DNA of 64,000 nucleotides. Source: Candidatus Woesearchaeota archaeon (lineage in GTDB: Archaea; Nanobdellota; Nanobdellia; Woesearchaeales; UBA10216). Positions 16,950-64,000 of this stretch are shown here, in pieces. Position numbers and translations under genes: made by a program. The notes below the pieces were generated by a model, which was given only the letters and a program-made list of their open reading frames with translations, was not told where the DNA came from and searched no databases. Numbering within the stretch: position 1 is the first letter of the stretch; the number at the start of each line of letters is the position of its first letter. The stretch lies in the NCBI GenBank assembly GCA_016192915.1, contig JACPTF010000016.1, forward strand, positions 1-64,000. The letters run 5' to 3'.

Positions 16950-17653
16950 CTACCCTTCGCCAAACTCCCCAAGCTTTTTCTGCCACTTACCGCTGAGCTT
17001 TTGCCTGTAAGGCGCCCAGCTCTTCCTGAAAATGTCAGGGTAAACCTCAAAGTATTTGTCGAAGAATGCGATCGTCTTCGGGTCAGTGAGGTAACCAGAG
17101 CCGAAGTCCTCTACAACAACCTTTTTTATTTTTTCAATCTCCTCATCCCTGGTAACTTTCGCGAGTATTGAGGCGGCAGAGCACTCAACATGGTTAACAT
17201 CAGCCTTATGCTCAACAACAGCCTCAATTTTCTTGTTTTTCAGCAGCCGCATAAGGTATTTCTTGTAGTTGGCAACGTTGTTGCTGGGGCTGTCGATAAT
17301 AATCCTGTCAGGATTCAGGGCATTAATAATCTCGGCTGACTTGTGCGCCTCAAGCCAGTTCAGGTTCATGCCGTCATCAGACTTCACAGAGGCGTCAATC
17401 TCGGCAGGGCTTACGATAAGGATTTTGTAGCCCTTGACAATCCTGACTATCTTGCCAAACAACTGCTCACGCTGACTTGGGCTGAGCAGCTTGGAGTCCT
17501 TCGCACCAATCTTTTTCAGCTCGGCCGCACCTACTTCGTCAGTCAGCACGCCGCACATTACCATTGGGCCGATGATGGGGCCTTTCGGAGAACCATAGAA
17601 AATTAATCCTAAAGTTCACTTCCGCTCTCATCGATCCCGCAAGCTAGTGTCAT
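16950..17653 (-). CDS. rnhB: Ribonuclease HII, interrupted by a 35-nt insert; proposed join complement(16950..17583,17619..17653)
   Basis: exon 1 MTLACGIDESG(R) and exon 2 GPIIGPMVMCGVLTDE...VEHKADVNHVECSAASILAKV; joined frame gives MTLACGIDESGRGPIIGPMVMCGV, 222 aa. Confidence 0.88.
17584..17618 (-). other. Candidate BHB intron (35 nt) in rnhB mRNA
   Basis: CGGA-[AG^U]-GAAC...GUUC-UCCG-[AA^A]: 4-bp central helix CGGA/UCCG, two 3-nt bulges, 4-bp inner helix GAAC/GUUC; contains in-frame TAG; length not a multiple of 3. Confidence 0.8.
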
Positions 17654-18681
17654 ATTGGCACCACTTCCTTATTTGTGTTCATTACTTCCCACATACCATC
17701 TTCTTTTCTTTTTATTAAACCTAGTCCTTCAAGTTCTTTCAATCTTCTGAATGCCGCTTTCCAGCAAACTCCAGCATCATCAGCTAAATCTTTAGTTCGT
17801 TTAGCGTCGCTTTTTAGTGCACAAAGGTATTTATATTTTATCGATGAAATTAAAATTACGCCATTATTCAGAGTCCAATAATCTTTGCTTCTTATCCTGT
17901 ACTTTACTATGATGCCTTCCTTTTTGAGTTCTGATAATATCTCCCATATCCTGTAATTAGACCTATCGAAAGTTTTTGCCAGTTGTTCTGTCGTATACGG
18001 TTTTATACTATCAAAAACTTTTGCAAGTGCACTTTTTAAATAATTCGGTCTATATTGTTTCTGCTTATATTTGTTTAGCATTCTATTGAATCTGTTTTTC
18101 TTATCAGGGTGTAAATCTGCAAGTCCTATCGCAGCTGCTTTATCAAAATTCTCTTTTCTTCTAATTACGTAACCTTCCCTGTGGTGTTTTGAGAACTCAT
18201 AATCTATTTTGAAAAATTCTAATCCCTGTTCTACAACAGTTACTCTTTTTGCTTGTGCCATCCTTAGAATTCTGCTGCAATGCTTCCCTTCCTTAATACT
18301 GCCTTCACCAGCAAAAAATCCTCTAAGTATCCCGGCATAATTGCGTTTATTGTTTTTAATTTCTTCAACTAACTTTCTCCATTCTTTCATCAAGCTGACC
18401 GATGCAAGTCTTCATATGAAATAAGGTTTTGTAGCTCTTTCATCGAGATAATAATTTACTTGAACTCTTTTTAGTGATATTCTCGTTTTATTTTTATTTG
18501 GCTGATATATGTATATTCTAATCTTTGGCTTATGCCTAACGAATAACCTTCTAACATTTCTGTGGAAAAACTCCACCAATTTCCAGCAATTATTAGTGAA
18601 TGTAATTTCATTTTCTGACTTGTTATCTCCTTCTGCTAACCATAAGCCAACGCATTCTGCAATTCTATCTTCATTATCCAT
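17650..18681 (-). pseudogene. LAGLIDADG homing endonuclease with a single in-frame TGA (18414..18412)
   Basis: two LAGLIDADG helices (CVGLWLAEGDN and YAGILRGFFAGEGS) in ORFs 18412-18765 and 17650-18393, same frame, separated only by TGA; start ATG at 18681. Confidence 0.85.
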
Positions 18682-18910
18682 TTTCTTTACCTCTGAAATC
18701 CCAATCAAGCGTTGAGATTTCTCACGCTTAGCTGAGAAATCTCGCGTTGTTGGCGAGGAGGACACTGAGCGGAGCTGCCTAATTGCTTTTAGGCGTTAGC
18801 CGACCCTGCATAGCAGGGGAAAAGCATAATTTGGCAGCTCTGCGGTCCTCCGAGCCTTTCGTAAGAAGTCGTTTATATACCCTCGCCGGGCACTTGTCCA
18901 GTGTCCAGTG
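18679..18910 (-). repeat. Conserved promoter+leader element, copy A (inverted relative to copy B)
   Basis: CACTGGACACTGGACA...GCCCGGCGAGGGTATATAAA...GGCTCGGAGGACCGCAGAGCTGCCAAA...TTGATTGGGATTTCAGAGGTAAAGAAAATG; near-identical blocks at 61614-61851. Confidence 0.95.
18682..18854 (-). ncRNA. Structured leader RNA, copy A, upstream of LAGLIDADG gene
   Basis: long paired rod, side hairpins CCCTGC-tat-GCAGGG and GAGATTTCTC/GAGAAATCTC; covaries with copy B. Confidence 0.8.
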
Positions 18911-59385: not shown

Positions 59386-60585
59386 TTGAACTCGTTAAGC
59401 ATGCGGAAACAGGGGATTTTTGGAACTCAATTGTCGCTGCCCCAGCTGCTGTTGATCCTGTCAATTGCTGCGGCTGTGCTTGTGCTTCCTGGTTCTGACA
59501 TCTACTCAAACATCCACTGGGGCTGGCTTTACAATTACATGATTGAGCATGGTGTCCTGCTGGAAAAGGACTTTTCTATGCTCAGCGGGAACCAGCCGCT
59601 GTATGGCGCAGGCGTATTTTCGCATATCCTGTCAGGGCTTGGCTGGTCCGCATTTGGTAAAGCTATTGTGAAGATTCTTGAAGTGCTCCTGTTCTCAGGG
59701 ATAGTGCTCCTGTCGCTGAAAATATTCAGGAACAGGAACATGCTGTTCTTCTGGTACGCGATGATTTTCGTCAAGATACTGCTTCCTGACTCCTACCCTT
59801 ACCTTCTTTCCGCCTTTCTTTTCTACCTCGGTATTTACCTGATTAAAAGGTTCAGGGACAAGCCGTACGGGGACATAGCCATCTCAGTGGCGGGGCTAAA
59901 CCACCCTTACGTCGCTGTCAGCAACATGGCAACAATCCTCTTTGGCAGGATGAGCCTTTTCCTTGCCAACGTGGCAGTGCTGCTCGCGCAGCTCTTCGTA
60001 GTCAAATACGTTTTCCTGTCAGGCGCTGTCAATTTTGAGCTTGACAACATTCTCGATTTGGCTATACGCTCTGCCATATTGCTTTTCCCTTTTGCAGCAG
60101 AGTTTGCCCCCAAATTCCTGCTGAGGCTAATGAACCTCAGGGCAGCTTATCTTGTTGTCGCAGCCGGAGTACTCTTAGTTTACCCTGTTTTTTTCGTGCC
60201 TTTCGAGATGGGATGGAAGGAAGGCATAAGCTGCTACTACACGAAAACGTACGATGAAATCCCCAAATTGCAAGGAAACATAAGGATAGTTGACGACTGC
60301 AGGAACTGGATATACGTGTTCCCGCTGAAAGGAATGGCCACTTCGCTTTCGCCATATTTTGAGGGCCAGCACTACCAGACGGAATGGAGCGAGGACGAGT
60401 ATGTATCGTACCTGAGCGAAACTAAAACGAGCTACGTCATCTTCTGCAAGAAATGCAAAATCAGGACAAAAACCCTGCAGGAAACAGGAGAGCTTGAAAT
60501 TCTGAAAAGCAACTTCCCAATTTACGCCGAGCTCGAGGGCTACACAATCTTTGACGCGAGGAAAGCCGACTTGGGAAACATTTAA
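59386..60585 (+). CDS. Multi-TM membrane protein, unknown function
   Basis: 399 aa, ~9 hydrophobic segments. Confidence 0.7.
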   Translation: MNSLSMRKQGIFGTQLSLPQLLLILSIAAAVLVLPGSDIYSNIHWGWLYNYMIEHGVLLEKDFSMLSGNQPLYGAGVFSHILSGLGWSAFGKAIVKILEVLLFSGIVLLSLKIFRNRNMLFFWYAMIFVKILLPDSYPYLLSAFLFYLGIYLIKRFRDKPYGDIAISVAGLNHPYVAVSNMATILFGRMSLFLANVAVLLAQLFVVKYVFLSGAVNFELDNILDLAIRSAILLFPFAAEFAPKFLLRLMNLRAAYLVVAAGVLLVYPVFFVPFEMGWKEGISCYYTKTYDEIPKLQGNIRIVDDCRNWIYVFPLKGMATSLSPYFEGQHYQTEWSEDEYVSYLSETKTSYVIFCKKCKIRTKTLQETGELEILKSNFPIYAELEGYTIFDARKADLGNI

Positions 60586-60603
60586 AAGAACCCAAAGGAC
60601 TTC

Positions 60604-61005
60604 TTGTGGCGCATGACCAATGACAAGGAGATAAAGGCAGAGTTCAGGAAGAAGGCATCATTGGAGCCGGATAATACTGTTATCTTACGTTTCATGGACA
60701 GCGAGGACGAGTTTCCCTTCAGATTTACTTGGTCCATTGAACTGCCAACTGGAATGTCGGGTGTGGAGATTGTTAAAATTAAAAAGTGGACTGATGAGCA
60801 CATAGACTTAGGGAGTACGGCTCGAGCATGGCTTAAACGAGCAAACCCTGGAGAGCATCCACCAGAATATCTGCTCAGTATTAGTGGACACGGAAATGAT
60901 AATCGTTGGGGGTGGTTTAATGCATTTGTAAGTGCCTTAAATACGCATCTTGAAAGGAACGGTTATAAATTAAAAAGAATAGGCCGTCATGATTTTGAGT
61001 TATAA
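60604..61005 (+). CDS. Hypothetical protein
   Basis: 133 aa ORF. Confidence 0.5.
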   Translation: MWRMTNDKEIKAEFRKKASLEPDNTVILRFMDSEDEFPFRFTWSIELPTGMSGVEIVKIKKWTDEHIDLGSTARAWLKRANPGEHPPEYLLSISGHGNDNRWGWFNAFVSALNTHLERNGYKLKRIGRHDFEL

Positions 61006-61017
61006 TAGTTGAAGACT

Positions 61018-61476
61018 TCATATGTTATTTTTTATTGAATTTAAAATATTAGCAGGATTTTTTAGGGCTTTCTTTAATAGCGCAATACCGTCCTCATTTT
61101 TGAAATTCTCATATTTTTCTATTTGCGAAAACCTCATAAATCTAAATTTTCTTTGTCTATTAAATTTATATCCTCCTTTTTTATAGAATATTATTGAAGG
61201 CATTACATAAAATTTATTGCCAGTTATATTGTGGCACACTATAAAGAAATTTTCTCTTGGTTCAAAATCTTTTACGGCAAACTGTTCTTCGTAACCTAAT
61301 ATAACTCTACTTTTAATTTTTATTTCAACATAAGCACCCTCTTTACTCTTTACAATTACGTCTACACCTTCAACGTCTGTAACGGGTACATAGATATCAA
61401 AGTCATTTTTTAAAAGCTCTGATATAATCAAATATTCTACTGATTTACCTTTCTTTACTGTATTTTGCGTTATCAT
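61018..61476 (-). CDS. PD-(D/E)XK-like nuclease family protein
   Basis: KGKSVEYLIISELLKNDFDIYVPVTDVEGVDVIVKSKEGAYVEIKIKSR. Confidence 0.65.
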   Translation of the reverse strand: MITQNTVKKGKSVEYLIISELLKNDFDIYVPVTDVEGVDVIVKSKEGAYVEIKIKSRVILGYEEQFAVKDFEPRENFFIVCHNITGNKFYVMPSIIFYKKGGYKFNRQRKFRFMRFSQIEKYENFKNEDGIALLKKALKNPANILNSIKNNI

Positions 61477-61613: not shown

Positions 61614-61851
61614 CACTGGACACTGGACAGATGCCCGGCGAGGGTATATAAACCACTTCTTACAGAGGCTCGGAGGACCGCAGAGCTGCCAAATAATGCT
61701 TTTCCCTCATCTTGCGAGATGAGGTCGGGCTTACGCCCTAAAAGCAATTAGGCAGCTCCGCTCAAAGTCCTCCTCGCTGGCTGAGAGGTTTCTTTTCCTA
61801 AGCGGAAAGAAACCTCAACGTTAGATTGGGATTTCAGGGGTAAATAAAATG
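61614..61851 (+). repeat. Conserved promoter+leader element, copy B (inverted relative to copy A)
   Basis: near-identical blocks to 18679-18910 from CACTGGACACTGGACA through the ATG. Confidence 0.95.
61669..61848 (+). ncRNA. Structured leader RNA, copy B, upstream of 632-aa nuclease
   Basis: stems GGAGGAC/GTCCTCC, GAGCTGCC/GGCAGCTC, TGCTTTT/AAAAGCA, CCTCATC/GATGAGG, GAGGTTTCTTT/AAAGAAACCTC. Confidence 0.8.
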
Positions 61852-63747
61852 ATTAATATTAGTTCAGTTCAAAATGTTAGCAACTTTATAGATGGAATTT
61901 GTGCTACAAACAAAATTAGCTATGCAGCTGTGTGTAGAACCTTTACAATCACAAAAAGAAGTCTGTACTTGTGGAGGAAGTATAATAAATTGCCTTCTAA
62001 AGAGTTACACAGGACCAAATTGCAAGAATTAACAGAGAAAACCGGTAAGTCTGTTGAGGAATTAGAGAGGGTAGGTAATATGTGTAATCATATCAGAAAA
62101 TACAGGATAGCTAAAATTATTTCTTACATCCTAATGACTAAAAAGCTCAAACAGAAGGAACTTGCAGAAACTCTTAATGTAACTCGCGCATTGCTTGACA
62201 GTGCTATGAATAAAAACGCTTATGAGCAAAATAGGCGAAACTCAACAAACTTTTTTTCTTATCAGTTAGCCAAATATTGTGTTGATAACAGTATTGACTT
62301 AAAAAATGTTGAAAGTGCCCCTTTGTTTGATGTAAGGAAATTAAACAATCAGGAATTATCTAATCTTATTTATGGTCTTCTGAAAGTATTAGAGCTAAAC
62401 ACATACGATTTGAACAAATATGGGCTGCAGGATAACACGGTATGTAGGTGGCTATTAGGAAAATCAATAATTCTACAGTACAAAGATGTAGGCATGCTGC
62501 TCGAATTAATACTAAAAACTGGCAAAAGTATCGATGAATTAATTTCTATTGGAAGTAGTGTTAGCAAGGAGATAAGGAAATTAGAAGCCCAAAATAACTG
62601 GGAAATAACAAGTTGCAATTTTAAAATTGACAATAATGCTGAGAAACTATTGTATGATCGGCTCAAATCGATTTATTCAGGCTATGAAATCCTGCATAAA
62701 GTGAGAATTTCTAAAAATAATGAAAAATTTGAGGCTGATTTTATTGCCTTTGATGAGAAGGAAACTTTGTGGTTTGAGATTACTGAAATTGTGAATACTT
62801 CAAGTTTTCCAGGCAATCTTGATATGCGTGTCTTAAGAATTAAAGAGTTACTTAAGCCGACAAAAATTGTGCTTATAAGAAGAGTGGAAACTAACACAGG
62901 TGCCTTACTTAGGTATTCTAGACTGTTAAGGTTAGGGATATTTACCTGTTCTATAGATGGAATAACTGAAATTGATAAAGTGATAGAAGAACAGGAGAAA
63001 TTAATGGAGCTATCAAAGACATTGCTCTACAATCCTATCAAAACAAGTCATGAATTAAGGATATTCAGAATGTACTGCTTAAGCATGTCAAAAAACCAAT
63101 TCGCAGCACTTTTGAATGGCAACAGCATCAGGAGCAGCGTGTTGGAATATAAATTAAAGTTACCAACTCACATCACCGCTCAAGTATCAGAAGTACAAGA
63201 GCTCCTTAGGCTGGGCAAGCCAGTTCGTGAATTGCATAGACTTTCTAATAATAAATTGCGACTCGAAACTACACAATGTAATAAAATCTTACGACAAACT
63301 AATTTTAAAGATAACTTAGAAAAGGATTTGTTCGAGCATTTAAGCAGCAAGTTTGAAGTTTATCATAATGTAGTTCTTGCTAACAAAGAAGTAACTATAG
63401 TTAGTGAAGCGGATTTGTTTATACCTGCCTTTGATGTTATTGTTGACTGCAAGAATTCAATAAACAGGCATTCTGGCACCTTCATTAAAGTTCTGTGGAG
63501 CTTGCAAAGGTTCAGAAGAATAACAAAAAACGTGGTTTTATATGTGCCTAACGCTACCGAAAGAATAGTAAATGTTTTTAAAAAGAATGGCATAGCTATA
63601 GCCAAAAATAAAGAAGAGTTGCTATTCATTATTCAAGGACTGCAAGAAAATGAGCGACAAAGAAACCAAAAGCTGGTTCAAGAAGGAAGTCCAGAAGAAC
63701 CCCGAAAAGTATTACCCCTTTGCCGTGTTAAAGGGGATGGGATTTGA
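61849..63747 (+). CDS. Modular HTH + tandem PD-(D/E)XK-like nuclease, 632 aa
   Basis: three HTH-like modules sharing (L..)TGKS(V/I)(E/D)EL; nuclease modules FEADFIAFDEKETLWFEIT and SEADLFIPAFDVIVDCKNS. Confidence 0.75.
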   Translation: MINISSVQNVSNFIDGICATNKISYAAVCRTFTITKRSLYLWRKYNKLPSKELHRTKLQELTEKTGKSVEELERVGNMCNHIRKYRIAKIISYILMTKKLKQKELAETLNVTRALLDSAMNKNAYEQNRRNSTNFFSYQLAKYCVDNSIDLKNVESAPLFDVRKLNNQELSNLIYGLLKVLELNTYDLNKYGLQDNTVCRWLLGKSIILQYKDVGMLLELILKTGKSIDELISIGSSVSKEIRKLEAQNNWEITSCNFKIDNNAEKLLYDRLKSIYSGYEILHKVRISKNNEKFEADFIAFDEKETLWFEITEIVNTSSFPGNLDMRVLRIKELLKPTKIVLIRRVETNTGALLRYSRLLRLGIFTCSIDGITEIDKVIEEQEKLMELSKTLLYNPIKTSHELRIFRMYCLSMSKNQFAALLNGNSIRSSVLEYKLKLPTHITAQVSEVQELLRLGKPVRELHRLSNNKLRLETTQCNKILRQTNFKDNLEKDLFEHLSSKFEVYHNVVLANKEVTIVSEADLFIPAFDVIVDCKNSINRHSGTFIKVLWSLQRFRRITKNVVLYVPNATERIVNVFKKNGIAIAKNKEELLFIIQGLQENERQRNQKLVQEGSPEEPRKVLPLCRVKGDGI

Positions 63748-64000
63748 AAGAAAGTGCTGCGCTAATTGTAAAACCTTTTTTTGGACAGCAATTGATTCAG
63801 AAGTTTGTGGAAATCCGGAATGCTCCGGAGGATTTCGCTTTATAGATAAATCGCCTGCGAAAAAGAGATTAAGCTATATAGAAGTCTGGCAACAATTTGC
63901 AAGTCACTTCAAGAAGCTTGGTTACACACCTATAAGGCGATATCCCGTCGCGTCAAGATGGAATCCAACAAGCGACTTTGTAGCTGCCTCAATTTACGAC
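63650..64000 (+). CDS. alaS: Alanyl-tRNA synthetase, archaeal type (5' part, truncated by window end)
   Basis: MSDKETKSWFKKEVQKNPEKYYPFAVLKGMGFERKCCANCKTFFWT...CGNPEC; open frame to window end. Confidence 0.93.
   Translation, partial: MSDKETKSWFKKEVQKNPEKYYPFAVLKGMGFERKCCANCKTFFWTAIDSEVCGNPECSGGFRFIDKSPAKKRLSYIEVWQQFASHFKKLGYTPIRRYPVASRWNPTSDFVAASIYD

Follow-up and report, generated by a model that had tools for sequence, protein, structure and literature searches.

A Putative Free-Standing Homing Endonuclease Gene with a Structured Leader RNA Inserted at the Start of alaS in a Woesearchaeota Genome

The alanyl-tRNA synthetase gene (alaS) of a Candidatus Woesearchaeota genome (G000; 1.2 Mb) is interrupted near its start by an inserted element, which leaves a stump of the native gene on its left, carries a structured leader RNA followed by a gene for a protein of 632 amino acids, and ends in an alaS reading frame whose first codons are foreign to the host genus. 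Judging from sequence comparisons, we consider it likely that the 632-aa protein is a free-standing homing endonuclease of the PD-(D/E)XK type, which would cut alaS and which carries with it a replacement for the 5' end of that gene. A relative of the nuclease gene is linked to alaS in a second genus, and the same leader is found upstream of homing endonuclease genes at unrelated loci. Positions refer to the window, i.e., the whole stretch of 64,000 nucleotides that was analysed, and are collected in Table 1.

Table 1. Features of the alaS element and of a second leader locus in the window.
Feature	Position	Strand	Basis or remark
LAGLIDADG-like homing endonuclease gene behind the second leader, broken into two ORFs	17653..18681	-	
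Second copy of the leader RNA	18679..18866	-	Model match 218 bits
Native alaS stump: promoter region (TTTAAAAG) and first ~21 codons (ATG 60613, MTNDKEIKAEFRKKASLEPD)	60577..60676	+	Aligned to same-genus alaS
ORF tail fused to the stump, ~109 aa, left end of the insert	60677..61005	+	
PDDEXK_5-like small nuclease, 152 aa, divergent neighbour	61018..61476	-	PF11645 E 7e-5, below cut-off
Promoter box CACTGGACACTGGACA..TGCCCGGCGAGGGTATATAAA	61614..61652	+	Multi-copy element in the genus
Structured leader RNA, ~195 nt, ends at the ATG of the ORF	61657..61851	+	Covariance model R1, match 185 bits
Putative free-standing homing endonuclease, 632 aa	61849..63747	+	ORF, G013 relative, module comparisons, shared leader
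HTH1	61849..62082	+	Residues 1-78
HTH2	62083..62328	+	
HTH3	62329..62562	+	Residues 161-238
Nuclease-like module 1	62563..63030	+	EADF..ETLWFEIT
HTH4	63031..63282	+	Residues 395-478
Nuclease-like module 2 (NUC2)	63283..63684	+	EADLFI..VIVDCKNS
Replacement alaS 5' end, codons 1-60	63650..63829	+	Co-inherited with the nuclease gene
Remaining alaS in the window, running past its end	63830..64000	+	Codons 113-400 group with the host genus
NPTS at alaS codons 105-108	63962..63973	+	Codon alignment

Insertion into alaS and Origin of Its 5' End

The left border of the insert is marked by the remnant of the native gene. The stump aligns with the promoter and alaS 5' end of genomes of the same genus, best with G001 and with 85% over 20 aa to G006, and this homology stops after position 60676, the insert running from about 60677. 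The ORF tail that is fused to the stump at this point has no homologue in 98 relatives. The small gene encoded on the opposite strand between the stump and the leader has rare and distant relatives (31% in G001 and 26% in G053), and its membership in the element is uncertain.

On the right side, alaS now starts at position 63650 with an ATG of its own and runs for its full 844 aa; its codons 1-20 are duplicated by the stump. The beginning and the body of this gene differ in descent. For codons 1-60, G000 and G013, which belong to the same GTDB family but to different genera, form a clade with a support of 1.000 and a long branch; this clade is absent for codons 113-400, where G000 groups with its host genus and G013 with G017 and G018. 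Compared with six genus mates, G000 has nucleotide identities of 0.53-0.58 over codons 1-60 as opposed to 0.78-0.81 over codons 113-400 (Fisher P 1e-7 to 2e-13), a drop that is not seen between pairs of genus mates used as controls (P > 0.04). G000 also lacks an extra residue that its genus mates carry near codon 48. Codons 61-112 group with G001 at the protein level (0.905), yet their nucleotide identity to the genus mates is low; given the grouping of the protein with the host genus, the foreign tract has no sharp right-hand limit. Since the genome yielded only a single alaS, the chimeric alaS is presumably the working gene, and the native sequence that flanks the insert on both sides argues against a chimeric bin.

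Codons 105-108 of alaS read NPTS in G000 and NDTS in G013, where the 12 other members of the family that entered the comparison have R(D/E/A)DT or similar. We had considered a recoding that confers immunity, but NPT at codons 105-107 is also present in non-carriers, namely distant Woesearchaeota of other families, which weakens the view that these residues are necessarily of that kind; they may have another origin.

Distribution and Domain Architecture of the 632-aa Protein

The ORF is open and intact in the window and translates as given in the preliminary description. A relative encoded by Ca. Woesearchaeota ARS1199 (G013; NZCN01000001.1), with 53-56% identity over residues 223-631 (dN 0.39, dS saturated), makes it more than a chance reading frame. 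The G013 copy is a pseudogene, in which the N-terminal part is missing and a TAG replaces the codon of Trp550. In a phylum sample of 371 genomes the gene was present in these two only, GTDB contigs again yielded G013 and nothing else, and no homologue of the protein was found in phages and viral contigs. The search for homologues and their neighbours, a check already named in the preliminary description, thus returned one relative, with alaS directly downstream in both genomes. Weak matches at three loci (L003, L004, L005) were rejected as false homologues, being a repeat-rich secreted-type protein, a Trm1-like tRNA methyltransferase and other unrelated genes. Searches of the ORF against Pfam, NCBIfam and PDB gave no match of note, and neither did PADLOC for anti-phage defence, the best E-value of 0.017 being confined to an HTH stretch.

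With its last ~30 residues (603-632), the ORF overlaps the beginning of alaS. The G013 copy ends in an ATGA overlap with alaS, which we take as the ancestral state; the window copy is without that stop, which was lost through a change in alaS codon 2, and the ~30 extra C-terminal residues result from this loss.

The protein had been described as a series of repeated HTH units interleaved with two nuclease-like modules, one active and one degenerate. HTH1 and HTH3 are significantly alike (z 7.1, with 0 of 300 shuffles as good) and carry the TGKS-type tails as described, and HTH4 resembles the repeat weakly (z 2.6-3.0), but HTH2 has no sequence likeness to the other units, its residues 84-122 giving HTH matches below the cut-off. 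The motif letters of the nuclease-like modules are likewise present as quoted (EAD..EIT in module 1, EAD..DCK in module 2); the modules themselves show marginal similarity to each other (z 2.4; hhalign E 0.05), and neither was matched by a Pfam, NCBIfam or PDB family. Structure prediction, which the preliminary description had suggested, gave poor AlphaFold models with two sequences as input (pLDDT 36 for the full length and 54 for NUC2), and Foldseek, run with the NUC2 model, placed PD-(D/E)XK/ERCC4 proteins (FANCM, Hef nuclease, NucS/EndoMS) and others at the top, at non-significant E-values (0.09-0.46). The division into one active and one degenerate site is not supported: relative to G013, conservation is higher in the EIT module (62% identity, dN 0.30) than in the DCK module (56-58%), and fold evidence is weak for both. 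In the decayed G013 copy, module 2 reads ACK, with Ala in place of the presumed catalytic D533 of D-C-K. The reading as HTH units with two nuclease-like modules is plausible, and the latter are probably of the PD-(D/E)XK type.

A Structured Leader RNA Shared with Homing Endonuclease Genes

Exact matches to the promoter box number 2 in the window, where 0 would be expected, and there are many copies genome-wide as well as in genus mates. The leader that follows it is also multi-copy in the genus and shows the marks of a conserved fold (z -6.1): 12 of its 47 pairs have compensatory changes, and 96.9% of the alignment cells are paired, compared with 42-49% once the pairing is slid. On visual inspection, several leaders appear to have an alternative, riboswitch-like hairpin ahead of the ribosome binding site. 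A known RNA was suspected at first, but the Rfam search gave no family and nothing near a gathering score, and no account of the leader was found in the open-licence literature on homing endonucleases and structured leaders in Woesearchaeota and archaea. It is likely to represent a new RNA family, present across families of the order.

Wherever the sequence behind a leader copy could be read, the leader stops where an ORF begins. Of the ORFs in the first set, 11 contain LAGLIDADG_3 above the Pfam cut-off, others have LAGLIDADG motifs recognisable by eye, and those at L111 and L118 give sub-cut-off matches to PD-(D/E)XK families. A covariance model (R1) built from 17 leader copies then gave 44 matches in 21 of 59 genomes, including further families. 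Among the 16 readable ORFs behind leaders that had been left out of model building, 11 have a homing endonuclease Pfam domain above the cut-off (nine LAGLIDADG_3 and two HNH_repeat, the "homing endonuclease associated repeat"), and a further two have LAGLIDADG_3 below it. The proteins at L174 and L182, in which those repeats are joined to a PD..ExK segment, are nearest in architecture to the 632-aa ORF. It is mainly because of this out-of-sample association of leader and nuclease that we call the 632-aa ORF a homing endonuclease. The leader RNA appears to predict homing endonuclease genes across families of the order, and could serve as a handle for new nuclease types that are missed by sequence searches, such as the modular 632-aa protein.

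The leader region is also seen at 18679-18910 on the reverse strand of the window, with further loci at L089-L124 and L161-L184. The 39-bp box without a leader stands upstream of other G000 genes (L094-L107), and the genes behind the box alone include TnpB-like (L097), Bro-N-like (L100), Cas4-like (L102) and LAGLIDADG-like (L095, L099) examples.

Similar Layouts at Other Genes

An ATGA overlap of the nuclease stop and the start of the target gene, as seen at alaS in G013, recurs at rnhB (window 17653-17650), at guaA and a helicase gene in G000, and at rtcA in G005. In G002 (L118, 5314-7653), cysS is split into two ORFs by a leader and a PD-(D/E)XK-like gene; the split lies before GRPGW(H/S)IECSAM, and each half has its own start or stop. 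Codons 1-24 of rtcA look weakly foreign (P 0.009-0.09), which is suggestive of a replaced 5' end.

Interruptions of another kind were observed in genes that neighbour leader-borne nuclease genes. In rnhB, an insert with in-frame stops interrupts the Arg codon in the catalytic motif DE(A/S)GRG, of 35 nt in G000 (window 17618-17584, reverse strand) and ~45 nt in G005 (L113, ~1930-1990); the frame is restored once the insert is removed, and rnhB is uninterrupted in G004 and G007. It could be either a mini-intron or a translational bypass element, a bulge-helix-bulge fold not being evident by single-sequence folding. Near a leader-borne nuclease gene of G006 (L124 / L008), rtcB appears to be interrupted after DAHEGF by ~100-150 nt, possibly a mini-intein or intron.

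Proposed Mechanism and Alternative Explanations

The preliminary description had proposed a site-specific nicking or homing enzyme. Homing is largely supported, not by the domain reading on which that proposal was built, but by the insertion into alaS with its stump, the co-inherited alaS 5' end and the shared leader. We infer the mechanism from the behaviour of free-standing homing endonucleases in T4-like phages (PMC2988022). The HTH units would recognise DNA and the nuclease-like modules would cut it, the target being the 5' region of alaS in element-free cells. As the break is mended on the donor template, the leader would be copied in together with the nuclease gene and with a divergent beginning of alaS, ~60 codons long (perhaps reaching to ~112), which would be immune to the enzyme and restore the full AlaRS frame. 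In G000 the left side would have been joined illegitimately, so that the native promoter and ~21 codons remain as the stump. As the target gene begins at the stop codon of the nuclease gene (ancestrally through ATGA), alaS probably relies on the element's own promoter and leader, a dependence that would guard the element against loss.

Could the gene instead encode a transcription regulator of alaS, forming one operon with it? Several HTH units, the position directly upstream of alaS in both genomes and the missing catalytic Lys of one module would suit such a protein, in which dead nuclease-like modules would act as effector or dimer domains. A regulator is, however, difficult to reconcile with a gene restricted to two of the sampled genomes and decaying in one of them, with a leader that otherwise precedes homing endonuclease genes, and with a native alaS that was interrupted and given a foreign 5' end; we therefore judge it very unlikely. 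A passive passenger, whereby a G013-like alaS region was acquired together with the gene through ordinary homologous recombination and without nuclease drive, appears unlikely as well. Recombination alone suffices for a mosaic alaS, and the pseudogene in G013 fits a passenger, but the alaS 5' ends are foreign in both carriers relative to their own genera, and passive transfer does not predict that leader-borne nuclease genes recur at the starts of unrelated conserved genes.

An intron or intein, with splicing that joins the stump to the downstream alaS, would find parallels in the group I introns of Woesearchaeota rRNA, some of which contain LAGLIDADG genes (PMC6125680), and in the interrupted cysS. 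Splicing is nevertheless unneeded at alaS, given the complete downstream gene with its own ATG and the repetition of codons 1-20 in the stump; the alaS insert has no Rfam intron match, and nothing was seen there of a group I or bulge-helix-bulge intron that would bring the exons together. This places the element outside introns and inteins and makes the spliced reading extremely improbable.

A free-standing homing endonuclease, the reading that we favor, suggests that homing takes place without introns in the chromosomes of uncultured archaea, the genes concerned being those of essential proteins (alaS, cysS, guaA, rnhB and rtcA). No account of homing in alaS was found in the open-licence literature on homing endonucleases and alanyl-tRNA synthetase. 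More tentatively, and with somewhat less than even confidence, we suggest that the Woesearchaeales harbor a class of such elements, each with a common promoter, the leader RNA, an interchangeable nuclease gene (LAGLIDADG, PD-(D/E)XK or others), the ATGA junction and a replacement 5' end for an essential gene, which could function as natural cleave-and-rescue drives with the leader as a switch or an active part for mobility or controlled expression.

Comparison with Known Systems

I-Ssp6803I is a small, intron-borne homing endonuclease of the PD-(D/E)XK type. Its family is listed in PMC6083498. The 632-aa protein is similar in that it is probably a homing nuclease of this type, but it is modular and free-standing and has no detectable sequence similarity to I-Ssp6803I. 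In HEARO/IscB, a mobile element, a structured omega-RNA lies directly upstream of the ORF for the endonuclease IscB, an HNH/RuvC protein. The alaS element shares the structured RNA directly 5' of an endonuclease ORF; its leader, however, serves different nuclease folds and gives no sign of a variable guide, and the proteins behind leaders contain LAGLIDADG, HNH_repeat or PD-(D/E)XK-like domains instead of an IscB domain. The SXT/R391 integrative and conjugative elements insert into prfC by means of an integrase, at the 5' end of the host gene, for which they supply a new promoter and a new beginning of the coding sequence. The alaS element has this layout in common with them, but no integrase was seen there.

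The free-standing homing endonucleases of T4-like phages (Seg and Mob, and mobE of Aeh1 in the split nrdA) cut a conserved gene that lacks them and co-convert its flanks; the target genes may be split and still work, and translation of the nuclease can be regulated by RNA structure (PMC2988022). These features have counterparts here, in a selfish nuclease gene located next to or within a conserved gene that is essential, the co-conversion of flanks, a target that is split yet coding, an own promoter (as for some of the phage genes) and RNA structure near the ribosome binding site. The Woesearchaeota elements differ in residing in an archaeal chromosome, in using LAGLIDADG and PD-(D/E)XK-like rather than GIY-YIG and HNH nucleases, and in having a conserved ~195-nt leader common to unrelated nuclease folds together with a substitute 5' end for the target gene. 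Through this substitute the element resembles synthetic cleave-and-rescue gene drives, in which a nuclease directed against an essential gene is linked to a resistant copy of it (PMC7951863). While those systems are designed, the archaeal element is natural and replaces the 5' part of the gene alone; with the damage mended by a linked substitute 5' end, it would represent their natural counterpart.
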